A stretch of 64,000 nt of DNA from Gillisia sp. (lineage in GTDB: Bacteria; Bacteroidota; Bacteroidia; Flavobacteriales; Flavobacteriaceae): contig JAGXIL010000089.1 of NCBI GenBank assembly GCA_024635655.1, positions 1 to 64,000 on the forward strand, given 5' to 3'. This document shows, one piece after another, positions 4,707 through 57,635 of this stretch; the stretch's first letter is position 1, and every line of letters begins with the position of its first letter. The notes beneath the pieces are model-generated. The model made no database searches. It was not told the DNA's origin and saw nothing but the letters and a program-made list of their open reading frames with translations. The translations under genes and the position numbers were made by a program.

Positions 4707-6097
4707 ACTACGTTTTCTACGTGAAAGGTTTGCGGGAACATATCTACGGGACGTACTTTGGTAACTATGTAATGTGCATCGAGCAATTCCAGGTCTCTGG
4801 CCTGAGTTGCAGAATTACAGCTTACATACACAATACGTTGGGGCAAGATACCTATTATTTGCTCAATTACATCTTTATGCATCCCATCCCGGGGAGGATC
4901 TGTTATGATCACATCCGGCTTCCCATGTTCTTTGATGAAATCTCTCGTAAATACCTTTCTCATATCCCCGGCAAAGAAACTGGTATTTTCAATATTGTTC
5001 CTCAGGGCATTTTGTTTTGCATCTTCAATGGCCACCGGCACCGCTTCGATCCCTACAACTTTCCCTGCCTTTGCTGCAATGAACTGGGCAATTGTACCGG
5101 TTCCCGTATACAGGTCATAAACGAGTTCATTTCCTGTTAATTGTGCAAAATCCCGTGTGATCTTATACAATTCATAGGCTTGTTTGGAATTGGTTTGATA
5201 GAAGGATTTGGCATTGATCTTAAAGTTAAGGCCTTCCATTTCTTCGAAAATATGGTCTCTTCCTGAATAACAAATTACTTCCTGATCATAAATGGTGTCG
5301 TTCCCTTTGGAATTGATCACATACTGCAGAGAAGTAATCTCAGGAAACTCTTCTGCAAGCCTGTCGAGCAAAAGTGTTCGTTTTTCAACATCTTCAGCAA
5401 AGAACTGAACCACGACCATCAATTCTCCCGTTGATGCGGTTCTTATCATTAAGGTGCGAAGTAATCCGTATTGTTCCCGGGTATTAAAGAAGGAGATATC
5501 ATTTTTAGTGGCAAATTCCTTTACAAAATTTCTAATAGCATTGCTCGGATCCTGCTGAAGGTGACATTTCTTAATATCCAGGATCTTATCCCACATTCCG
5601 GGAATGTGAAAACCCAGCGCATTTTTATCTGCAAAATCCCTGTCGCTGTTTATTTCGTCCAGAGTTAGCCAGCGGCTGTCGCTAAAGGAAAATTCCATTT
5701 TATTTCGGTAGAAATATATGTCTTCACTCCCCAGAATGGGTGTAACAGGAGGTAATTCTATTTTTCCTATCCTTTTTAAGTTATTTTCGACTTCCTGTTG
5801 TTTGTAAAATAGTTGATGTTCGTAACCCATAAATTGCCATTTGCAACCTCCGCAGGTTCCAAAATGCTGACATACCGGCTCAACTCGTTTAACTGAATAT
5901 TGGTGGAATTCAATGGCAGTACCTTCGTAAAACGACCTTTTCTTTTTCGTGGTCCTAATATCGGCTATATCTCCCGGAACGGCATTATTAATAAATACCA
6001 CTTTTCCATCGGGCGCCTTTGCAATGCTTTTTCCTTTTGCACCTGCACCTACAATTTCTAACTTCTCAAAAACTATATTTTTATTCTTTCTTCGCAT
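4688..6097 (-). CDS. rlmD: 23S rRNA (uracil-C5) methyltransferase RlmD
   Basis: A 469-residue SAM-dependent enzyme that methylates C5 of a conserved 23S uridine (U1939 in E. coli). Residues 1-62 form a TRAM-type RNA-binding domain. The iron-sulfur cysteines are C76, C82 and C85, plus a later Cys in IKKCHLQ. The methyltransferase core has DLYTGTGT, TDPPRDGM and the catalytic loop VSCNSATQARDL. I place the start at 6097. The frame stays open to 6160, but a TATTTTTG promoter element lies only 4 nt before this ATG, so upstream starts would lie in or before the promoter. It heads an overlapping operon with DUF6452 and DUF6048. Confidence 0.93.
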   Translation of the reverse strand: MRRKNKNIVFEKLEIVGAGAKGKSIAKAPDGKVVFINNAVPGDIADIRTTKKKRSFYEGTAIEFHQYSVKRVEPVCQHFGTCGGCKWQFMGYEHQLFYKQQEVENNLKRIGKIELPPVTPILGSEDIYFYRNKMEFSFSDSRWLTLDEINSDRDFADKNALGFHIPGMWDKILDIKKCHLQQDPSNAIRNFVKEFATKNDISFFNTREQYGLLRTLMIRTASTGELMVVVQFFAEDVEKRTLLLDRLAEEFPEITSLQYVINSKGNDTIYDQEVICYSGRDHIFEEMEGLNFKINAKSFYQTNSKQAYELYKITRDFAQLTGNELVYDLYTGTGTIAQFIAAKAGKVVGIEAVPVAIEDAKQNALRNNIENTSFFAGDMRKVFTRDFIKEHGKPDVIITDPPRDGMHKDVIEQIIGILPQRIVYVSCNSATQARDLELLDAHYIVTKVRPVDMFPQTFHVENVVCLEKR

Positions 6098-6101
6098 AGC
6101 G

Positions 6102-6109
6102 CAAAAATA
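6102..6109 (-). promoter_or_regulatory. -7 promoter element of rlmD (leaderless)
   Basis: Minus-strand TATTTTTG ends 4 nt before the rlmD ATG. With the usual position of this element (about -11 to -4), transcription would begin at or next to the start codon. Confidence 0.6.
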
Positions 6110-6267
6110 GGACAATTGTAAAGATTTATTGAGCGCTGTATTATAAATTTCAGATAACATTTAGTAATTTGCGGCAAAGCAGAAAGGATGATTTCTCTCC
6201 TGTATTTATTCTGTTTTCACCGAAGCACCAAAGAAGGAATAGATTGAAAAACAATAAAAAATTTAAT

Positions 6268-7548
6268 ATGCAATTAGAAAAGATTACAACATCACAGCAA
6301 GCCATTGAAATGGAAGACAAGCACGGAGCACATAATTATCATCCATTGCCTGTAGTGCTTTCAAAAGGAGAAGGAGTTTATGTATGGGATGTTGAAGGTA
6401 AAAAATACTATGATTTTCTTTCTGCCTATTCTGCAGTAAATCAAGGGCATTGCCATCCAAAAATTGTAAATGCAATGCACGAGCAGGCATCAAAGTTGGC
6501 TCTTACTTCCAGGGCTTTTTACAATGACGTTCTTGGACCTTACGAAAAATTTGCCACAGAATATTTTAAGTTTGATAAGATCCTGCCTATGAATACCGGT
6601 GCAGAAGCTGTTGAAACAGCAATTAAGATCGCACGAAAATGGGCTTATGAAAAAAAAGGAGTAGAGGAGAAGGAAGCACAGATAATTGTATGTGAAAATA
6701 ATTTCCACGGAAGAACAACCACGGTAATTTCCTTCTCAAATGATGAAAATGCCCGCAAGAATTTTGGGCCCTATACACCCGGATTTATTAAAATTCCCTA
6801 CAATGATATTGATGCTCTGGAAAATGCCATTATGGAAAATAAAAATATTGCCGGATTTTTAGTAGAACCTATACAGGGAGAAGCGGGAGTATACACCCCG
6901 GCCGATGATTACATGAAAAGGGCGAAAGATATCTGTACCAAAAATAATGTGCTTTTTATTGCAGATGAGATCCAGACAGGGATAGCCAGAACCGGTGCTT
7001 TACTTGCTGTATGTGGAGATTGCACCTGTGAAAACCATTGCGAGCGACAAGAAACCTATACCAGGCCTGACCTGTTGATTTTAGGAAAAGCACTATCAGG
7101 AGGGAATTATCCTGTTTCTGCTGTTTTGGCTGATAATGAGGTCATGAATGTTATCAAACCAGGACAACATGGCTCTACCTTTGGAGGGAATCCGGTTGCA
7201 GGAGCAACTGCAGTGGCTGCGCTTCAAGTAGTGAGCGAGGAACACCTTATTCAGAATGCCAGAAAATTGGGGAATCTCTTCAGAAGAAAAATGAATGACT
7301 ATATAAGAAATTCAAATATTGTAAACCTGGTAAGAGGTAGAGGTTTATTGAATGCCATTGTTATAAATGATTCTGAAGACAGTTCTACTGCCTGGGATAT
7401 TTGTATGGCCTTAAAAGAAAATGGCCTTCTGGCTAAGCCAACCCACGGAAATATAATTCGGTTTGCACCGCCTCTTGTGATGAACGAAGAGCAACTGATG
7501 GAGTGTGTAGAGATCATTACCAAAACTTTAAAGGATTTCGAAAAATAG
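6268..7548 (+). CDS. rocD: Ornithine aminotransferase
   Basis: A 426-residue class III PLP aminotransferase that converts ornithine and 2-oxoglutarate to glutamate semialdehyde and glutamate, linking arginine breakdown to proline and glutamate. Family blocks are NTGAEAVETAIK (PLP phosphate binding), IVCENNFHGRT, VEPIQGEAG, FIADEIQTG (Asp contacting the PLP ring) and LGKALSGG with the Schiff-base Lys. An insert GDCTCENHCERQ with three Cys precedes the Lys motif, an unusual local detail. The start is the ATG at 6268, which begins the family-like N-terminus; upstream in-frame codons to 6169 have only non-ATG starts and lie in the promoter and leader. Confidence 0.93.
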   Translation: MQLEKITTSQQAIEMEDKHGAHNYHPLPVVLSKGEGVYVWDVEGKKYYDFLSAYSAVNQGHCHPKIVNAMHEQASKLALTSRAFYNDVLGPYEKFATEYFKFDKILPMNTGAEAVETAIKIARKWAYEKKGVEEKEAQIIVCENNFHGRTTTVISFSNDENARKNFGPYTPGFIKIPYNDIDALENAIMENKNIAGFLVEPIQGEAGVYTPADDYMKRAKDICTKNNVLFIADEIQTGIARTGALLAVCGDCTCENHCERQETYTRPDLLILGKALSGGNYPVSAVLADNEVMNVIKPGQHGSTFGGNPVAGATAVAALQVVSEEHLIQNARKLGNLFRRKMNDYIRNSNIVNLVRGRGLLNAIVINDSEDSSTAWDICMALKENGLLAKPTHGNIIRFAPPLVMNEEQLMECVEIITKTLKDFEK

Positions 7549-7568
7549 AGATACCTTATTTTAAACAA

Positions 7569-7604
7569 AAGGCTGTCTGAACTTAATTTCAGGCAGCCTT
7601 TTTT
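7569..7604 (+). terminator. Terminator after rocD
   Basis: Stem aaggctgtctgaa / ttcaggcagcctt followed by a T run, before trmH. Confidence 0.85.
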
Positions 7605-7627
7605 GATATTCGATAAAATAACAATAG

Positions 7628-8284
7628 ATGCCAGATCCTGAATTCATAGCCTATCTTGAAGATTTACTCACTCCAAGGAGAAAAGAGTTATTTAATAAAG
7701 TGCTAGAACTGCGAACCAACCATTTTACTGTAGCCACAGAAGATGTGTACCAGTTGCACAATACCAGTGCGGTGATAAGGAGTTGTGATGTGTTTGGGAT
7801 CCAGAACATTCACGTTATCGAGGAACGAAACAGAAGAAAGATCGACAGGGAGATTGCAATGGGAGCACAAAAGTGGGTTACCCTTAACAGATATCATTCC
7901 AGTGAAGAGTGTATTGATTCCCTTAAGGAAAAAGGATATCAGATTGTTGCTACCATGCCACATGGAAATGCCGTAAACCTGGCAGATTTTGATATTTCCA
8001 AACCATCGGCAATATTCTTTGGAACTGAGCAGGATGGCCTTTCATCGCAGATGGTAAGCAGGGCAGACCAGTTTTTAAAAATTCCTATGGCCGGTTTTAC
8101 AGACAGTTTAAATATTTCGGTTTCTGCGGCAATAATATTACAACAGCTTACCCAAAAATTAAGAAATAGTAATATTTCCTGGGAATTGCCTGAAAGTCAG
8201 AAAAATGCCATTAAATTTGAATGGTTGAGTAAAAATTTTAAAAATATGCCTGAATTAATGAAAAGGTTTCAGAATAACGGTTAA
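7628..8284 (+). CDS. trmH: tRNA (guanosine-18-2'-O)-methyltransferase TrmH
   Basis: A 218-residue SPOUT enzyme that 2'-O-methylates G18 in the D-loop of tRNA. The three SpoU motifs are all present: N45-T-S-A-V-I-R51 (motif 1, with the catalytic Arg), FGTEQDGLS at 131-139 (motif 2) and IPMAG..DSLNISVSAAI at 152-169 (motif 3, trefoil-knot SAM site). An N-terminal helical extension precedes the knot, and a C-terminal tail follows it as in E. coli TrmH. It is probably cotranscribed with the downstream SRPBCC gene, 33 nt away. Confidence 0.92.
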   Translation: MPDPEFIAYLEDLLTPRRKELFNKVLELRTNHFTVATEDVYQLHNTSAVIRSCDVFGIQNIHVIEERNRRKIDREIAMGAQKWVTLNRYHSSEECIDSLKEKGYQIVATMPHGNAVNLADFDISKPSAIFFGTEQDGLSSQMVSRADQFLKIPMAGFTDSLNISVSAAIILQQLTQKLRNSNISWELPESQKNAIKFEWLSKNFKNMPELMKRFQNNG

Positions 8285-8317
8285 TTAACTATTTTTACTA
8301 TTCCCTAACAAAATTAG

Positions 8318-8884
8318 ATGACATTAGTTTTTTACATTTTTATTGCCATAATCACTTTTTTCGCCTTTCTCCACGCGTGGGCCAGAAAAGAATTTGATAT
8401 CAGCAGGACTGTGGTGATAAATCGTCCTAAAGAAGAGGTTTTTAATTTTGTAAGACAATTAAAAAAGGAACATCTCTGGATGCCATGGTTTAAAATTGAG
8501 TATAATGGGGTTCTGAAGTATGACGGTGAAGATGGGAAAATGGATGCCTTACTATATTGGAAAGGCCACAAACATTTTTATGAAGGTACTCAAAAAATAG
8601 TTAAACTAAATCAGGGGAAGATCATAGAGACCCGGCTTTTGCTGGTGAGACCTTTTAGGTTGGTTCTTTTGGAATATAAAGGACTAAAGGAAATTGACGA
8701 AAACAGAACAAAAATGGTTTGGGGTATAAGAGGAGGTCTCGCCTTTCCTCTTTCAGTCATGGCTCTTATTCATCCTGTAGACAAAGCTTATGGGAAAGAC
8801 CTTGAAATGGGATTGAAAAATATTAAAAGCATTTTGGAAGCCAAGAATGAAAAATCTCCTGTGGCCTCTGGTATTCCTAAGTAA
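8318..8884 (+). CDS. Membrane-anchored SRPBCC (START-like) protein
   Basis: A 188-residue protein with one N-terminal membrane segment (residues 1-18) followed by a START/Bet v1-like fold. SRTVVINRPKEEVFNFV is the typical first strand and helix of polyketide-cyclase or SRPBCC domains. Such domains hold hydrophobic ligands in a cavity; no catalytic residues can be assigned. It follows trmH by 33 nt and converges with the next gene, leaving 4 nt between the two stops. Confidence 0.8.
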   Translation: MTLVFYIFIAIITFFAFLHAWARKEFDISRTVVINRPKEEVFNFVRQLKKEHLWMPWFKIEYNGVLKYDGEDGKMDALLYWKGHKHFYEGTQKIVKLNQGKIIETRLLLVRPFRLVLLEYKGLKEIDENRTKMVWGIRGGLAFPLSVMALIHPVDKAYGKDLEMGLKNIKSILEAKNEKSPVASGIPK

Positions 8885-8888
8885 ATTT

Positions 8889-9647
8889 CTACCGCCTTAG
8901 TACTTTGTATTCTTCGTAACATCCGCTTATCGCGTCAAGTATTTGAAGATCATTGGCACTCCGCATAAAGTCGTTTGAGTAGTTACACCGGGCCAGGATT
9001 TCATCAATATCTATCTGCGATATCTGAAGTACGGCCGCCAAAGTTTGCCGGTCATATTTGTTTTGAAGCAGCGTCCTGATTTCATCATCAGCTTTCATTT
9101 GCCTCAATTTCTTCATCTGTTTTGGCTTGGTACCAAAAATGTTATACAGGGCATCGGCTGGATTAAAAATGGCCCCAAGGAGGTTTCCTGCCGCTGAAGG
9201 AGAACTATTTCCCGCCTCATAACCTACATCAAGTCCTGAAATACTGTATCTGTAGTTTTCGTAAATAGGGATGTTTTTCGCATCAATTTCCAAATATCCT
9301 GTAAGTTGTATGGGTTTCACCACCACTTCTTCCAGTGCGATACCTATTTCGGTCATTTTCACTTTTACAGATCCATATTTTAACCAGTCATTGGTGACCC
9401 TTACCTGGATGGTCTTAAAACCCAAGTAGGAAAAATAGAGCGTGTCATTAACTTCCGCAATAATTTCAAAATATCCTTCGCTGTCGGTGGTAGTTCCTTT
9501 TACCTGATTAAGGTTTACAAGGTTTACGTTTTCCAGCGCCTTATCATTAGCAGCATTTTCAACCCTACCTGAAACTATGGTAGGCTCTTGCGCAAAACTG
9601 CTGATGGCTAAAAATAATGAAAATATAAGGGTAGTATATAATCTCAT
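8889..9647 (-). CDS. Exported protein with carboxypeptidase-D-like regulatory domain
   Basis: A 252-residue secreted or surface protein. The signal peptide ends at SSFAQ (residue 20). Residues about 24-115 form a CarboxypepD_reg-like beta-sandwich (VSGRVENAANDKALENVNLVN... GTTTDSEGYFEI... FSYLGFKT), the domain that often opens TonB-dependent receptors in Bacteroidota. Here no plug or barrel follows; instead there is an alpha-helical C-terminal region of unknown role. Function unknown. Confidence 0.8.
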   Translation of the reverse strand: MRLYTTLIFSLFLAISSFAQEPTIVSGRVENAANDKALENVNLVNLNQVKGTTTDSEGYFEIIAEVNDTLYFSYLGFKTIQVRVTNDWLKYGSVKVKMTEIGIALEEVVVKPIQLTGYLEIDAKNIPIYENYRYSISGLDVGYEAGNSSPSAAGNLLGAIFNPADALYNIFGTKPKQMKKLRQMKADDEIRTLLQNKYDRQTLAAVLQISQIDIDEILARCNYSNDFMRSANDLQILDAISGCYEEYKVLRR

Positions 9648-9721
9648 ATGGTGATATAAAAATAGGGATATATTTGTTATAGTAAATACTATACCAAACT
9701 TACCCCTATAGTTTGCTTTTT

Positions 9722-11572
9722 TTATGATCGTCTGGATTTCCTTCTATTAACGGAACTTTCTATATTCCTTTTTCTACCTCCGTCTCTTCCGGATGGTTTA
9801 TCTCCTCCTTCAGAAGATCTTCTTCTGCCACCCCCATCAGAGGAACCACCTGAACCTGAAGATCTGCGGTTAAAGCCGCCATCTGATCCGGAGCCTGATG
9901 ATCTACGACCTCCGCCGCCACCTTCACCTCTTGGTTTGCGGCTTCTGCCGGAAGATCTTCCGCCACCGCCGCCATCCTGGGATACTTCAACGCTAATGCG
10001 TCTTCCCTGATGCTGAAAATTTTCAAAAGTTGAAAGAACCTTATCGGCTATTTCAGAATTTGTGTTGAAGAAAGAGAAACTTTCCTTAACATCTACTCTA
10101 AATACATCATCTCTTCCAAGATCAAGCGTTGCTTTCAAAAAGTCTTTTAATGTCATCCAGTCAAAATCATCCTTGGTTCCCACATTTATAAAGAAACGTG
10201 AACTGTCTCCACCACCTGATCCTGCAGAGCTTTCATCTCTTGATGAGACTTTGGCATTAAGATCTGATGAATTTTTATAATAGTTAAAGAAGCGGGTAAA
10301 TTCAACAGAAAACACTTTTTTAATAAGTTCTTCTTTAGAGAAATCCTGAAGGTATTCTTCAATACCGGGTAGGTAAGGATCTATGTCATGATTGATCTCT
10401 GTATTCTTAATTTGATTGGCCAAATGGTAAAGCTGCACTCTGCAGATCTCCATTCCATCCGGAATTTCTTTTTTCTCAAAAGGTTGCTTAATGATACGCT
10501 CAATACTTTTGATCTTCCGCACTTCACTTTTTGATACGATCACCATAGAAACTCCACTTTTCCCAGCACGTCCGGTTCTACCGCTACGGTGAGTGTAGAT
10601 TTCGGGTTCATCTGGCAACTGGTAGTGAATTACGTGAGTAATATCTTCCACGTCAATTCCACGGGCAGCAACATCTGTTGCCACTAACATCTGGATCTGA
10701 CGGCTTCTAAAGCTTTTCATCACCAAATCTCTCTGGTTCTGGCTAAGGTCCCCATGTAAGGCGGCTGCATTGTAGCCATCCTCAATAAGTTGTTCGGCTA
10801 CTTTTTGAGTATCCCGCTTGGTTCTGCAAAAGATCACGGAGAAAATATCAGGATTTGCATCAGCCAGGCGTTTAAGAGCCGAATAACGGTCTCTGGAATT
10901 CACAGCATAATACTCGTGAGAAACATTCGCTGTTCCCTGATTTTTAGTTCCCACAGTGATCTCAACCGGAGTGCGCATAAATTTCTTAGCGATGGTTGAC
11001 ACTTCTTTAGGCATAGTAGCCGAAAATAACCAGGTATTTTTCTCTTTAGGAGTATGCGATAAAATTGCAGTAATATCTTCAAAGAATCCCATGTTCAGCA
11101 TCTCATCAGCCTCATCAAGAATGCAAAATTCAATTTTGGATATATCAACCAACCTGCGGTTGATCATATCCTGCATTCTTCCGGGAGTTGCAACTATAAT
11201 TTGTGCTCCTCGTTGGATTAGCTTTGATTGATCGGTAATACTGGCTCCTCCGTAAACTGCAACTGTGTGCAATCCCGGAGTATGTTTAGCGTAATTTTTA
11301 AGCTCATTGGTAATTTGCAAACACAATTCCCGGGTAGGGGAAAGAATTAATCCTTGAGTATGCTTACTGTTAGCGTTGATCTTTTGAATGAGTGGAAAAC
11401 CAAAAGCTGCGGTTTTTCCGGTACCGGTTTGTGCAAGTGCCACCATATCGGTGTCTTTTTGCAATAGAATAGGGATCGCTTTTTCCTGTACTTCACTCGG
11501 GGTTTCGAAGCCCATTTCTTCAATTGCCTTGAGTATTGCAGGGTTTAATCCTAATTGTTCAAATTTATTCAT
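9722..11572 (-). CDS. DEAD-box RNA helicase with DbpA-type RNA-binding domain and RGS-rich tail
   Basis: A 616-residue ATP-dependent RNA helicase, probably acting in ribosome assembly or mRNA turnover. Motifs in order: Q motif (res 3-35), Walker A AQTGTGKT (47-54), PTREL, DEAD at 153-156, SAT, then the second RecA domain with HRSGRTGRAG. A DbpA/CsdA-like RNA-binding domain follows (about 470-550). The last 60 residues are an Arg/Gly/Ser low-complexity tail expected to be disordered and to bind RNA. A promoter element (TACCTTTG) lies just upstream, so it can be transcribed apart from the rlmH-rdgB pair preceding it. Symbols deaD or csdA would be plausible but are not certain. Confidence 0.92.
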   Translation of the reverse strand: MNKFEQLGLNPAILKAIEEMGFETPSEVQEKAIPILLQKDTDMVALAQTGTGKTAAFGFPLIQKINANSKHTQGLILSPTRELCLQITNELKNYAKHTPGLHTVAVYGGASITDQSKLIQRGAQIIVATPGRMQDMINRRLVDISKIEFCILDEADEMLNMGFFEDITAILSHTPKEKNTWLFSATMPKEVSTIAKKFMRTPVEITVGTKNQGTANVSHEYYAVNSRDRYSALKRLADANPDIFSVIFCRTKRDTQKVAEQLIEDGYNAAALHGDLSQNQRDLVMKSFRSRQIQMLVATDVAARGIDVEDITHVIHYQLPDEPEIYTHRSGRTGRAGKSGVSMVIVSKSEVRKIKSIERIIKQPFEKKEIPDGMEICRVQLYHLANQIKNTEINHDIDPYLPGIEEYLQDFSKEELIKKVFSVEFTRFFNYYKNSSDLNAKVSSRDESSAGSGGGDSSRFFINVGTKDDFDWMTLKDFLKATLDLGRDDVFRVDVKESFSFFNTNSEIADKVLSTFENFQHQGRRISVEVSQDGGGGGRSSGRSRKPRGEGGGGGRRSSGSGSDGGFNRRSSGSGGSSDGGGRRRSSEGGDKPSGRDGGRKRNIESSVNRRKSRRS

Positions 11573-50714: not shown

Positions 50715-52409
50715 CTAAATTTCATCTTCTGTTCTTATATTCAGGGAGTCTACTAAAAGTTTAAAAGTATTTTTACTTATTTTCCAGTTGGGAGGTTCAA
50801 TTTCACCCCAGGCCTCAGGCACATCACTGTTGTTAAAGTAACTCACGGCGATGATCTGACGATTGGTATTAATAGTTTTTGCTGCTTCTTTGAGCCACCG
50901 GTTTTGGAAATCCTCATCGCCCATTACCCCGAATTCCGTAATAAAGTAAGGTTTATTTATAAATCTTAACCTTGTTGATTTCCTATTAAAGATCTTGGAA
51001 AAGGTTTCCTGTTTTTCGGGATCAGTAATATTTACATCCGGTATCCCATATATAGAAATACTTACATAATCTACCACATCGTTTCCCGGCCACCATTCTA
51101 AAGATCCACGATCTCCTGCCGGACCCCATATGTATTCTATATTATTAGTTTGTTCCCTGTTGAACTCCACAAAATATCTATAGGCTTTTATATACTCTAT
51201 AGGATCCTGGCTTTGCCAGGAATAGCGGGTTATGGGAATTTCCATTTCATGGGCAAATCTAATGTAGATTTGGTGATCCTGAGCAGGTAGAAGAGAGTAG
51301 AATTTTTCCAAAACCTCGTCGTGTTTTCCGGAGGAAACAGATGTAAGGATATTTGAGTTGGTATTATCATCTCCATAAGATCCCGGCTCAACTGTAATTA
51401 GAAGGTCATTACCCCTGCCTGTTACTTCTTTTATTGCAGTAGTAAGATCTCCATTAGTTATATCTGAAAAATTTGCAAATAAGTGCTCTATGGAAATTGA
51501 TTTTTGAAGTACCAACAAATCATCCGGATCATAAACTCCCAAGAGAACATCTTCTGTTCTTTCACGTTTTCCGGAGGTTATATTCCGGTAATTCTCTTCT
51601 GCATATGCTATTTCCTCGTTATCAGAAATAAAATTATTGACATCAGAAATAACATTATCATTAAAGTTGGAAAGATCCATATTCCTGGAACCCAGGATGA
51701 AAACGGGCTTATCAATGAATCTTAAGCGGTGTAGTTTTCTCTGAAGCGAATATGGAATTGAATCATGATTTTGGTTCAGAAGAGTTTCGGTCAAACTATT
51801 CAAAGTTATTGATGCCGCGTCTACAAAATTGTCTTCAGGATAACTTTCCATTGCTCCGGGGTATCCGGCAGGCCCCCAAACAATTTCTATATCCGGGGAA
51901 ATGCCTTTTATTATCTGTGAAAACCTATTAAAGGCCGGAATATAATGTTGAGGTGTCATCTCCCAGGCGTAATGTCCTGCGGGAACATCCATTTCAGGAT
52001 TCCAGCGAATATAAATTTGCCTTTTACTGTTTAGTATTTCAGCAAAAAAAGTTTTTATATTTTCATCATAATCACCCCCGGCCACTTTTTTTAAAATACT
52101 GCTATCCCACATTTCAACCGTTAGCAAAACGGGAATATTCTCAGGCAGGTCCTTTAAAAGGTTTTCCGAGATCTTCCAGTTTTTATCACTATTTAAAATG
52201 AGCGCGTAATGTTTCAGGGATTTTGCTTTAGCCTGGGATATATTTTGCTGCCTGTCATATACCCCCAGTACCGGTTCTTCAAAGCGCTCTTCCATTTGAC
52301 TTTTCATCAACAGCATTTTAATTGTTGCAGAATTGGAAAGCCTGTAGCCTGCATAAATAAAACCTAATGATACCAGGATCAATAACCCTATGACAAGAAT
52401 TTTCTTCAT
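50715..52409 (-). CDS. Two-copy GH26-like glycosidase, first copy degenerate
   Basis: A 564-residue protein with an N-terminal membrane helix (about 4-22) and two related halves. Half 2 (about 287-500) has the glycoside hydrolase 26 layout: acid/base H387-E388 in RFAHEM, WGPAG at 428-432, and nucleophile E492 in YFITEFG. Half 1 (about 46-243) follows the same order with R135-W-N-P-E139-M, WGPAG at 178-182, then V236-F-I-L-G240, where the nucleophile Glu is replaced by Gly and the His before the acid/base by Pro. Half 1 is therefore probably inactive, and half 2 may still hydrolyse a beta-mannan or related beta-glycan. No sugar-uptake (Sus) genes are next to it. Confidence 0.82.
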   Translation of the reverse strand: MKKILVIGLLILVSLGFIYAGYRLSNSATIKMLLMKSQMEERFEEPVLGVYDRQQNISQAKAKSLKHYALILNSDKNWKISENLLKDLPENIPVLLTVEMWDSSILKKVAGGDYDENIKTFFAEILNSKRQIYIRWNPEMDVPAGHYAWEMTPQHYIPAFNRFSQIIKGISPDIEIVWGPAGYPGAMESYPEDNFVDAASITLNSLTETLLNQNHDSIPYSLQRKLHRLRFIDKPVFILGSRNMDLSNFNDNVISDVNNFISDNEEIAYAEENYRNITSGKRERTEDVLLGVYDPDDLLVLQKSISIEHLFANFSDITNGDLTTAIKEVTGRGNDLLITVEPGSYGDDNTNSNILTSVSSGKHDEVLEKFYSLLPAQDHQIYIRFAHEMEIPITRYSWQSQDPIEYIKAYRYFVEFNREQTNNIEYIWGPAGDRGSLEWWPGNDVVDYVSISIYGIPDVNITDPEKQETFSKIFNRKSTRLRFINKPYFITEFGVMGDEDFQNRWLKEAAKTINTNRQIIAVSYFNNSDVPEAWGEIEPPNWKISKNTFKLLVDSLNIRTEDEI

Positions 52410-52546: not shown

Positions 52547-53251
52547 ATGAACAATAAGATTACCATTGCGATAGACGGATTTTCTTCAACCGGAAAAAGT
52601 ACGGTTGCCAAACAACTTGCCAAAGAACTTGAATATATATATGTAGATACCGGAGCGATGTACAGGGCGGTAACTTTATTTGCGCTTAGAAATTCCCTAA
52701 TTTCAGAAACTTCTTTTGACAGGGAAGGTCTTATCGCAAAATTGCCGGAGGTGGATCTCAACTTTTTTTATGATAATACATTAGGATTTGCAGCGATATA
52801 TCTAAATGAGGAGAATGTTGAGGAGGAAATAAGACGCATGGAAGTTTCAGGTTATGTAAGTCAGGTGGCAGCAGTTTCTGAAGTTCGGGAAAAATTGGTA
52901 GCAGAGCAGCAGCAAATGGGAAAGGAAAAAGGGATTGTAATGGATGGCCGGGATATTGGAACCGTGGTTTTCCCAGATGCTGAATTGAAAATATTTATGA
53001 ATGCTTCAGCTGAAGAAAGGGCTGAGCGAAGATTTAAGGAAATGCAGCAAAAGGGGCAGGCGGTAAGTTTCGAGGAGGTCCTGAAGAATGTACAGGACAG
53101 GGATCATCAGGATACCACCCGGGAGGATTCTCCATTGATCCTGGCTGAAGATGCTATAGAAATCGATAATTCTTATTTAACTCCTGAAGATCAATTCCGG
53201 ATCGTTCTGGAACTGGCGGAAGAAAAAATAGCAGAACAGAAAGTTATTTAA
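52547..53251 (+). CDS. cmk: Cytidylate kinase
   Basis: A 234-residue nucleoside-monophosphate kinase that phosphorylates CMP and dCMP. P-loop GFSSTGKSTVAKQLA at about residues 11-25, the CMP-binding DTGAMYRAVTLFA, DGRDIGTVVFPDAELKIFM, and the lid RDHQDTTREDSPL are all present. Length is as expected. In many bacteria cmk is next to rpsA, and here rpsA follows within 700 nt, with one convergent lipoprotein gene between. Confidence 0.95.
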   Translation: MNNKITIAIDGFSSTGKSTVAKQLAKELEYIYVDTGAMYRAVTLFALRNSLISETSFDREGLIAKLPEVDLNFFYDNTLGFAAIYLNEENVEEEIRRMEVSGYVSQVAAVSEVREKLVAEQQQMGKEKGIVMDGRDIGTVVFPDAELKIFMNASAEERAERRFKEMQQKGQAVSFEEVLKNVQDRDHQDTTREDSPLILAEDAIEIDNSYLTPEDQFRIVLELAEEKIAEQKVI

Positions 53252-53709
53252 ATTTTAAAGGACACTTCCAGGGTGTCACTCATGGCATTTTCCTCCAGCC
53301 CGGAAGGATTTGCCCGGTGAAAAATTAAGTAACCTTTTTGAGTAGAAGGGGTGGGAAATTCCAATGTACCTTCAAAAGGCACCCAATCATCTGTCATCCA
53401 TTCGCCTTGAGCAGATATATAACTTTTAGCCATTGGCTCAAAATTTTCATTGACAAGTTCAACAGGAGCATCAGCTTCGAAAAACCAATAGCCTCTTGCT
53501 TCCCCTTCCAATGTAGTAGGTGAAGAAAAACTTTGGTTCTCTTGTGGCGTTTTCACCTTTAAAAGATCAGTAAACCTATGTTTTTCCGCACTGTTCAACT
53601 TCACTTCAGCAGCAGTCGGAAGCGGATCTTCAGTTTTGGATTCCTGAGAATTATATTTGCAGGAGTTCAGGAATAAGGGGAGAATTAATAAGAAAATCAG
53701 GTTTTTCAT
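53248..53709 (-). CDS. Gmad2-domain lipoprotein
   Basis: A 153-residue lipoprotein (signal LPLFLNSC, Cys 17). After a linker rich in Glu, Ser and Pro comes a Gmad2-type immunoglobulin-like domain (about 50-150) with VKTPQENQSFSSPTTLEGEARGYWFFEA, GEWMTDDWVPFEGTLEF and LIFHRANPSG. This domain is known from spore-germination proteins and cell-surface proteins of Gram-positives, but also occurs in Bacteroidota lipoproteins; its role is unknown. Its stop overlaps the convergent cmk stop by 4 nt. Confidence 0.83.
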   Translation of the reverse strand: MKNLIFLLILPLFLNSCKYNSQESKTEDPLPTAAEVKLNSAEKHRFTDLLKVKTPQENQSFSSPTTLEGEARGYWFFEADAPVELVNENFEPMAKSYISAQGEWMTDDWVPFEGTLEFPTPSTQKGYLIFHRANPSGLEENAMSDTLEVSFKI

Positions 53710-55850: not shown

Positions 55851-56011
55851 TTTTACATCTATACGATTTGAACCATATATAACTAACTGTTTTAAATTAA
55901 CAAATCCTTAACGACTGTGGAAAAACTAAGCGCTTTGTTCCTTCGTACATTTTAATGTTCCCAATCTTTCTTAGCCGTATTATTAATTTTTTAACCATTA
56001 ATTTATTAATT

Positions 56012-56779
56012 ATGAAAAAACCAATTATTAAAGTGAGTACGGCCGGTTCATCCCGGGAAAGGGTAAATGACTCCCGAAGAAGATTTCTAAAAACAGGGGG
56101 GATCGCCCTTGTGGGAACAAGTCTGCTCATGTACGGCTGTGATGTAGACGAAAACGAGACTTTTAATACTGCGGACCTGCATGGAGAGGATTCCAAAGGA
56201 AGAAAAGTTTTTAACCTTGGGAAAGGAGATTTTGGAATTTTAAATTATGCTTATGTATTAGAGCAACTGGAAGCTGCTTTTTACACCAATGTTTTGGATG
56301 GCGCTTATTTTGCAGGTGCGGTAGCAGAGGAGCGGTTGATTTTAGAAGATCTTTATAAGCACGAAGTCATTCATAGGGAATTCTTTAAAACGGTGCTAAG
56401 TACCATCAGGCCTTCTACTGATGTGCTTCCGGACCTTGAATTCGATTTTACCTCAATTGATTTCAACAGCAGAGATTCAGTTTTAGCAACTGCAAGGTTG
56501 CTGGAAGATACCGGAGTAGCTGCTTATAATGGAGCAGGGCCTTTGTTGGAAAATGCGACCTATTTATTACTTGCAGGGAAAATAGTTTCTGTAGAAGCCC
56601 GTCACGCTGCAGCAATTCGTTCTATTTATTTAAGTGATCCCACTGCTTTTGCAGGGGATGATATCATTGACGGTAACGGTTTGGATCTGGCCTTTGATCC
56701 TCAAACGGTATTAAATGCTGTTGAGGAAACAGGATTAATCGTTACAAAGATCATAGGAAGAAATTTACCGAAAGGGTAA
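56012..56779 (+). CDS. Ferritin-like protein with Tat lipoprotein signal
   Basis: About 255 residues. The twin-arginine signal D-S-R-R-R-F-L-K-T-G precedes a hydrophobic segment ending in LLMYGC, so a Tat-exported lipoprotein is likely. The mature part is a four-helix ferritin-like domain (Ferritin_2 type) with metal-ligand patterns YVLEQLEAAFY, YKHEVIHREFF and VEARHAAAIR, i.e. E...ExxH pairs. Relatives include desiccation-related proteins. Start at the ATG 56012; the frame is open to 55955 but the upstream part is AT-rich non-coding DNA. The next gene encodes a second protein of the same family 28 nt downstream. Confidence 0.88.
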   Translation: MKKPIIKVSTAGSSRERVNDSRRRFLKTGGIALVGTSLLMYGCDVDENETFNTADLHGEDSKGRKVFNLGKGDFGILNYAYVLEQLEAAFYTNVLDGAYFAGAVAEERLILEDLYKHEVIHREFFKTVLSTIRPSTDVLPDLEFDFTSIDFNSRDSVLATARLLEDTGVAAYNGAGPLLENATYLLLAGKIVSVEARHAAAIRSIYLSDPTAFAGDDIIDGNGLDLAFDPQTVLNAVEETGLIVTKIIGRNLPKG

Positions 56780-56807
56780 TTAAAACTAACACTTAAATAA
56801 AAAAATC

Positions 56808-57635
56808 ATGAATATTATAAAATTTTTAGACGAATTTACATCAGAGAACCTGACAAAGAAAATGTCCTCCAGAAGAGAGGTATTTGGAACTATGGGATCA
56901 TTAAGTAAAAAAGCTGCTCTTGCCGCTGTTCCATTTGGCCTTGCCGGTTCAGGAAAAGCCTATGCACAAACGAGTAAGGCGCACGAAGGGCCTTTGCAGC
57001 TGGCGTTAACCTTGGAATATCTTGAGGCTGAATTTTACATTAAGGCATTACAATCCGGAGTGTTACCATCCGCAGGAAAGGCAGAAGCTATTTACAGCCA
57101 GATATCCAAACATGAAACTGCACACGTGGAATTTCTAAAAGCTGCATTGGGAGATGCCTCTATTGAATCTCCGGAATTTGATTTTACTGCCGGAGGAGCT
57201 TTTGATCCCTTTAATGCTAATTTTGATGGGGCCTATGCACAACTATTAGCTTTGGCCCAGGCATTTGAAGATACCGGAGTGAGAGCTTATAAAGGACAGG
57301 CAGGGAATTTAATTGGTACTCCATTTTTAAAACCTGCACTTCAGATACATTCTGTTGAAGCAAGACACGCTTCTGAAATCAGGAGATTGAGAGCTTCTTT
57401 TATTGGAGATCCTCTTAATGAAGATGCCCTGGGTTGGATCACTTTAAATAACAGAGGACCGGGAATGCCGGCGGCTACACAGCCTGTATATGACGGAGAG
57501 GAAAATGTGGTTCAGGCGGGAGTCAATCTTGTAGATGCTACCAATTTTGGTGCAGTAGCTGTATCGCAATCTTATGATGAACCTATAAGTGGGGAAACTG
57601 CGGTTGCAATTGCCAGTTTATTTATAGTCTCTTAA
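56808..57635 (+). CDS. Second ferritin-like exported protein
   Basis: A 275-residue protein from the same family as the upstream gene. It has a Tat-like start (S-S-R-R-E-V-F-G) with a long, weakly hydrophobic region and a cleavage site at AYAQ (about residue 54). The ferritin-like helices show LALTLEYLEAEFYIKAL, ISKHETAHVEFLKAAL, FEDTGVRAYKGQ and HSVEARHASEIRRLR, again with ExxH pairs. Both proteins keep the DTGV.AY block, so they are diverged duplicates that may form a hetero-oligomer. A terminator follows. Confidence 0.88.
   Translation: MNIIKFLDEFTSENLTKKMSSRREVFGTMGSLSKKAALAAVPFGLAGSGKAYAQTSKAHEGPLQLALTLEYLEAEFYIKALQSGVLPSAGKAEAIYSQISKHETAHVEFLKAALGDASIESPEFDFTAGGAFDPFNANFDGAYAQLLALAQAFEDTGVRAYKGQAGNLIGTPFLKPALQIHSVEARHASEIRRLRASFIGDPLNEDALGWITLNNRGPGMPAATQPVYDGEENVVQAGVNLVDATNFGAVAVSQSYDEPISGETAVAIASLFIVS

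Follow-up and report, generated by a model that had tools for sequence, protein, structure and literature searches.

Glycosyltransferases of family 2 (GT2) that make polysaccharides pass the chain out of the cytoplasm, and the hydrolases associated with them process that chain (PMC7710045). In the clostridial cellulose synthase locus the hydrolase is CcsZ, whose specificity was used to infer the clostridial polymer (PMC7710045). PelA of the Pel system is likewise a glycoside hydrolase belonging to an exopolysaccharide synthase system, the product of which it cuts, and the study that describes it calls the physiological role of synthase-linked hydrolases unclear (PMC9894940). RiGT2 from Romboutsia ilealis, a cellulose-synthase-like GT2 found without bcsB at its locus, makes (1,3;1,4)-β-glucan (PMC10374906). 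As for family GH26, one of its members, WpsE, is encoded in the wps-1 exopolysaccharide biosynthesis cluster of Actinoplanes missouriensis, and the authors of that work know of no characterized Wzx/Wzy cluster with a GH26 (PMC13390465). In a tree of 107 GH26 sequences the lichenase branch and branches of unknown function are small, and the text of that paper contains neither the term GT2 nor the term glycosyltransferase (PMC6556568).

The gene described here, hereafter B, encodes a membrane-anchored protein made of two GH26 domains in tandem, and lies in a 64 kb stretch of Gillisia sp. DNA that I call the window. In other genomes it keeps company with three partner genes called D, C and A, which encode a cellulose-synthase-like GT2, a GH158-like protein and a protein with a Sulfatase-superfamily domain, respectively. 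Like B in the reading proposed below, CcsZ is a synthase-associated hydrolase with a single predicted N-terminal membrane anchor; unlike B, it is a single-domain GH5 from a different operon (PMC7710045). PelA resembles B in its proposed setting and differs in fold family and polymer, and the accessible part of the PelA study mentions no inactive tandem duplicate of its domain (PMC9894940). RiGT2 is comparable to D, but neither ‘GH26’ nor ‘glycoside hydrolase’ occurs in the text of the RiGT2 study (PMC10374906). The wps-1 cluster shares with the proposed B system a GH26 in a biosynthetic setting; it is, however, of the Wzx/Wzy type, and the accessible part of its description contains no duplex (PMC13390465). 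No description of a GH26 duplex or of a GT2-GH26 fusion was recognized in the open-licence papers searched. The closest solved relative of both halves of B by VIA-align is CtLic26A, the GH26 lichenase of Clostridium thermocellum (PDB 2vi0, 2cip), which has the same fold and catalytic pair as the second half but, in contrast to B, is a single active domain with a degradative function. I know of no dead copy and no synthase partner of CtLic26A. The analysis below makes it reasonably probable that B serves a synthase-dependent exopolysaccharide system, one of the β-glucan type, as a periplasmic accessory or processing subunit, in which half 2 cuts or edits the chain while half 1 holds it or serves as a dock.

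B occupies positions 50715..52409 of the minus strand and was delimited from ATG to stop and by its translation (564 aa). Its residues 2-25 (52335..52406, minus strand) are hydrophobic and helical in the structure model, and this predicted N-terminal membrane helix would anchor B in the inner membrane with the remainder facing the periplasm. Half 1 spans residues 45-284 (51558..52277, minus strand) and half 2 residues 285-564 (50718..51557, minus strand). The original prediction, which had described the protein from its sequence as an anchored pair of GH26-like copies, agrees with the model on the membrane helix and was right about the paired motifs, carried by both halves in the same order, and about the numbering of the key residues: P138, E139 and G240 in half 1, H387, E388 and E492 in half 2.

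The resemblance of the halves is far beyond chance. In single comparisons, BLASTP matches half 1 to half 2 within the window protein with E=3e-29 (29% identity, 231 columns), and profiles built from 17 homologues align with E=3.8e-39 over 233 columns, values that exclude a fortuitous similarity; profiles from 21 rows, one of which is a truncated copy, give E=4.9e-44, again as a single comparison. As judged by these alignments, the halves are true tandem duplicates. Their kinship with GH26 is most direct for half 2, which taken alone narrowly passes the Pfam GH26 model (PF02156; 20.5 bits for a cut-off of 20.2) and which phmmer aligns, over residues 304-528, with CtLic26A (E=1.6e-10). In that alignment E388 and E492 stand opposite residues 109 and 222 of CtLic26A, which I take to be its catalytic pair. 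Neither half 1 nor the whole protein has a Pfam GH26 match, so that the profile check called for by the original prediction succeeded for half 2 only, and a search of NCBIfam with the B protein returned nothing useful.

Structure models point the same way. The model of whole B (17-row alignment, pLDDT 82.7, pTM 0.83) has CtLic26A as first match in both Foldseek (E=1.6e-15) and VIA-align, where it covers residues 286-559 (Z 25.8, 2.9 Å, 249 aligned residues). Half 1 was also modelled alone (13-row alignment, pLDDT 75), and VIA-align again ranks CtLic26A best (Z 13.9, 2.8 Å, 185 aligned), the best row outside the GH26 enzymes being BuGH158 (Z 11.1). With Foldseek, by contrast, four of the matches listed for half 1 reach an E value of 0.001 and no GH26 entry is among the best 50 listed; the fold of half 1 therefore rests on VIA-align and on its profile match to half 2. 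The proposal that the halves share a fold is thus favoured by VIA-align, with CtLic26A best for each half, and not by the Foldseek listing for half 1. Neither model shows the final barrel strand of half 1.

The catalytic residues were followed through 20 distinct homologues, leaving out L135, a truncated copy of L093. In half 2 the His and acid/base Glu (H387-E388, 51246..51251, minus strand) and the nucleophile Glu (E492, 50934..50936, minus strand) are kept in 20/20. The half-1 counterparts are P138-E139 (51993..51998, minus strand) and G240 (51690..51692, minus strand). The His column is Pro in all 20 homologues, and the acid/base column holds Glu in 16, Asp in two, Val in one and Asn in one, so that E139, reported as kept, is indeed present in the window protein and is replaced in four of its homologues. 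The nucleophile column is Gly in 16, Ser in two, Thr in one and Ala in one. Glu was found there in none, which disposes of the idea that some homologues have an intact half 1; the nearest approach is L049, with a Glu one residue after that column. The main claims made for B at the outset, GH26 kinship, duplication, and loss of catalytic residues from half 1, are thus all upheld by the alignments of halves and homologues. On this sequence evidence half 1 is without a nucleophile in every member examined, and half 2 is probably a working enzyme and half 1 one that died long ago.

A tree of 70 GH26 domains, including 21 B rows (L135 among them) and midpoint-rooted for drawing only, places the two B halves in one group (100/98) that is separate from D-type and single-domain rows. 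Half 1 forms one clade (100/97), and so does half 2, with weaker support (83/69). The halves thus split before the 20 homologues diverged, which rules out a recent duplication, and the topology is consistent with a single duplication that predates every sampled member. The stem of half 1 measures 1.03 changes per column against 0.23 for half 2, and some half-1 rows sit on long branches. Nevertheless, by codon comparisons half 1 is under purifying selection where this can be measured: in three of seven pairs its dN/dS is 0.21, 0.24 and 0.14, versus 0.13, 0.10 and 0.10 for half 2, while half-1 dS is saturated in the other four pairs and is already 1.3 in one of the three usable ones. A single-domain GH26 with a hydrophobic N-terminus, 31% identical to half 2, is encoded beside a different GT2 gene in genome G206 (L079, 2925-5596, minus strand) and is a possible unduplicated counterpart of B.

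What, then, does half 1 do? One possibility is that it never touches glycan and is a structural spacer, or a dock for the synthase or for A, with all the chemistry done by half 2. Its faster evolution would fit, as would the loss of the His and the nucleophile in 20/20 homologues and of the acid/base Glu in 4/20, and the last barrel strand that is absent from the models. Several positions, however, are conserved in both halves, including E99/E341, G112/G361, R135/R384, W149/W398, Y156/Y406, G185/G435, P191/P441 and D197/D447; among them, W149, Y156, G185 and P191 of half 1 are identical in 20/20 homologues and match the residues of half 2, and a pure spacer would not need them. Moreover, W149 (51963..51965, minus strand), at the position of W398, is a Trp in 20/20 homologues in both halves and in 33/33 D-type GH26 rows, and this conserved Trp lies two strands' motif away from the catalytic Glu. 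I therefore consider it doubtful, if possible, that half 1 makes no contact with glycan.

The genomic surroundings bear on the role of the protein as a whole. In the window B is a lone minus-strand gene between two plus-strand genes, which from their sequences I take to be lon-like and cmk-like. No complete open reading frame of the window exceeds 817 aa, hence there is no SusC-sized gene; this rules against B being an enzyme of a polysaccharide-utilization locus and, as far as ORF size can tell, fits the original statement that it is not in one. Nearby, a short ORF that resembles a lipoprotein carries a Gmad2 domain (53248-53709, minus strand), a similar one being found at the same place in G003 (L003), and two adjacent ORFs of 274 and 275 aa, paralogue-like by eye, occupy 55955-57635 (plus strand). 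In G003, G010 and G312, B sits between the same two neighbours, and C and D are present elsewhere in the genome. The picture is different in other genomes. In G032 (L075) the order is C-D-A-B in a row; in G063, G065, G066 and G068 (L080, L081, L082 and L089), C-D was found in the same fetched stretch as B; and in G686 and G641 (L151 and L152) the order is C-D'-B, where D' consists of GT2 and tail and is without the GH26 domain (L151, 5091-7994, plus strand; L152, 7156-10137, minus strand). B is thus linked to C-D or C-D' in at least 7/20 homologues, a lower bound given that some homologues are known from a short contig or from separate places. In 11/20 homologues A is the next gene upstream of B, in the same orientation, and in G553 it lies one gene downstream. 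Between A-B and C-D of L082 there is also a membrane protein with the Pfam domain Acyl_transf_3 (8817-10457, minus strand), and ORFs with a similar start occupy the same place in L081; an O-acylation step is possible.

D is about 1260 aa long. Its GT2 part is cellulose-synthase-like and nearest to BcsA chains (6.6e-33), and reaches 153.8 of 699 bits with the NCBIfam CelA model, far under the cut-off. For its GH26 part, which has both Glu in 33/33 rows and the His in 32/33, the nearest match is CtLic26A (1.2e-19). C, of about 440 aa, is GH158-like and matches BuGH158 at 8.3e-55, an endo-β-1,3-glucanase whose activity depends on N136, E137 and E220 (PMC7157763). Each of the 19 true C rows carries Glu at the two catalytic columns. 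The Bcs cellulose system is recognized by BcsB, BcsC and the GH8 BcsZ; the hydrolases seen with B are GH26 and GH158-like. The C-terminal tail of D, of about 400 aa, itself aligns with C by profile (E=2.9e-16, 14% identity, 319 columns); an example is the last 400 aa of the D protein at 7445-11236 (minus strand) of L025. Among 36 tail rows, unique by their last 150 residues and including broken or partial genes, the acid/base column has no Glu, with Asp in 24, Asn in four, Thr in three and others in the remainder, the preceding Asn being kept in 31, and the nucleophile column has Glu in 10, Asp in 15, Ser in seven and others elsewhere. From this low-identity alignment the tail looks like a degenerate, distant GH158-like domain, and may be another retired glycosidase of this system.

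A, of about 830 aa, combines a hydrophobic N-terminal part with a Sulfatase-superfamily domain. Among its matches are VP1736, sulfatases, LtaS and the phosphoglycerol transferase I model; no equivalog cut-off is passed. The motif CxPxR, which marks sulfatases, is found in 0/13 A-type rows, whereas a conserved HxPxTNxS is found in 10/13 (two of the three rows without it are partial ORFs at locus ends), which makes a classical sulfatase less likely. I call A LtaS/OpgB-like; that it acts as a phosphotransferase is a guess.

Co-occurrence was quantified in 18 B-containing genomes, those of homologues L026 and L021 being left out. D has a match of at least 625 bits in 15/18 (one of these, G032, supplied the query), the genomes without it being G060, G061 and G000, the genome of the window, in which the best match, of 366 bits, is a different GT2 gene. 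A strong match to A (at least 526 bits) is present in 10/18, the query again coming from one of them (G066). Across a family sample of 397 genomes, B occurs in six, D-length frames in 21 and both in four (Fisher p=8e-5, uncorrected for relatedness), D-positive meaning a GH26-matching open frame of at least 1240 aa, counted by eye with at most three candidates scored per genome. B is not essential to D, since 17/21 D genomes have no B match. A phylum sample of 395 genomes contains B in five (G000, G171, G553, G641 and G686), four of them with D or D'. Within the genus, B is present in 3/16 genomes; in another member, G013, D is broken into several frames (L088, about 6028-9819, plus strand) and the genome has no B match. 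Gene order and co-occurrence together establish, as far as sequences can, the partnership of B with D, C and A in other genomes.

The genome of the window itself was searched for A, C and a full-length D, and none was found. The G000 assembly is 82% complete and has no match to the citrate-synthase-like gene that neighbours C-D in G003, so that the absence of C-D from it is uninformative; C-D may be missing from the assembly rather than from the strain, which would then have a partner synthase. A candidate partner of B in this strain is encoded on contig C18 of G000 (L072, 5154-9524, minus strand), where a TPR protein, a cellulose-synthase-like GT2 and a single membrane-type GH26 of 383 aa stand in a row; L096 has a similar GT2 and GH26 pair. 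The earlier suggestion that B acts on a glycan of the cell's own is thus favoured by the GT2 linkage in other genomes (15/18 by co-occurrence, at least 7/20 in the same stretch) and not by the window strain, in which B is alone and the genome shows no full D.

These same facts invite another reading, in which B is a stand-alone scavenging endo-glucanase working on periplasmic β-glucan oligosaccharides, half 1 is a CBM-like binding domain and any association with a synthase is fortuitous or has been lost in this lineage. B is indeed alone between unrelated genes in the window and in G003, G010 and G312, its own genome has no A, C or full D, and the nearest characterized enzyme is a degradative lichenase. 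But G003, G010 and G312 carry C and D elsewhere, D is present in 15/18 B genomes and the window holds no SusC-sized ORF; I consider this scavenging role unlikely. B probably trims or guides a polysaccharide that the cell has made, rather than digesting food.

In the preferred, processing-subunit reading, D would extrude a β-linked chain, probably a β-glucan. A GT2 accompanied by lichenase-like GH26 and GH158-like partners suggests, by the logic of the clostridial case, a β-1,3/1,4- or β-1,3-glucan. Half 2, as a putative lichenase-type GH26, would cut or edit the emerging chain and thereby set its length or release it, the lichenase specificity being taken from a nearest relative at about 25% identity. 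Half 1, the old dead copy, would most likely hold or position the chain, or dock the enzyme, beside the active half, and A may decorate the polymer. The membrane topology of B, the activity of half 2, the identity of the polymer, its decoration by A, glycan binding by half 1 and a partner synthase in the window strain are inferred. The C-D'-B arrangement of G686 and G641 points to B as a substitute for the GH26 domain of the synthase itself.

A more elaborate version, speculative and to my mind quite unlikely, would have the system keep live and retired copies of two glycosidase folds, GH26 (live in half 2 of B and in D, retired in half 1 of B) and GH158-like (live in C, retired in the tail of D). 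It would fall to the retired copies to hold the growing chain and read it, letting the live ones cut at set positions and give a defined length or linkage pattern; the retired glycosidases would thus act as a ruler in an undescribed Bacteroidota β-glucan system decorated by an LtaS/OpgB-like transferase. I rate this version low because the profile match between the D tail and C is comparatively weak and because Asp frequently stands in the tail at positions that are Glu in C. Finally, I consider it very unlikely that half 2 acts as a transglycosylase, joining or rearranging chains (for instance by inserting β-1,3 links), and not as a hydrolase. Transglycosylation would be feasible for a retaining GH26 whose nucleophile is conserved, and B sits in a biosynthetic context, but I found no sequence feature that separates transglycosylase from hydrolase.

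That hydrolases travel with polysaccharide synthases was already known. The B family amounts to a natural experiment, in that a live cutter and its dead counterpart are joined in one protein, and it makes a contrast available between a synthase without its own GH26 beside the duplex, as in G686 and G641, and a synthase with its own GH26 and no duplex. It also points to an apparently uncharacterized matrix polymer, probably of the β-glucan type, in Bacteroidota.
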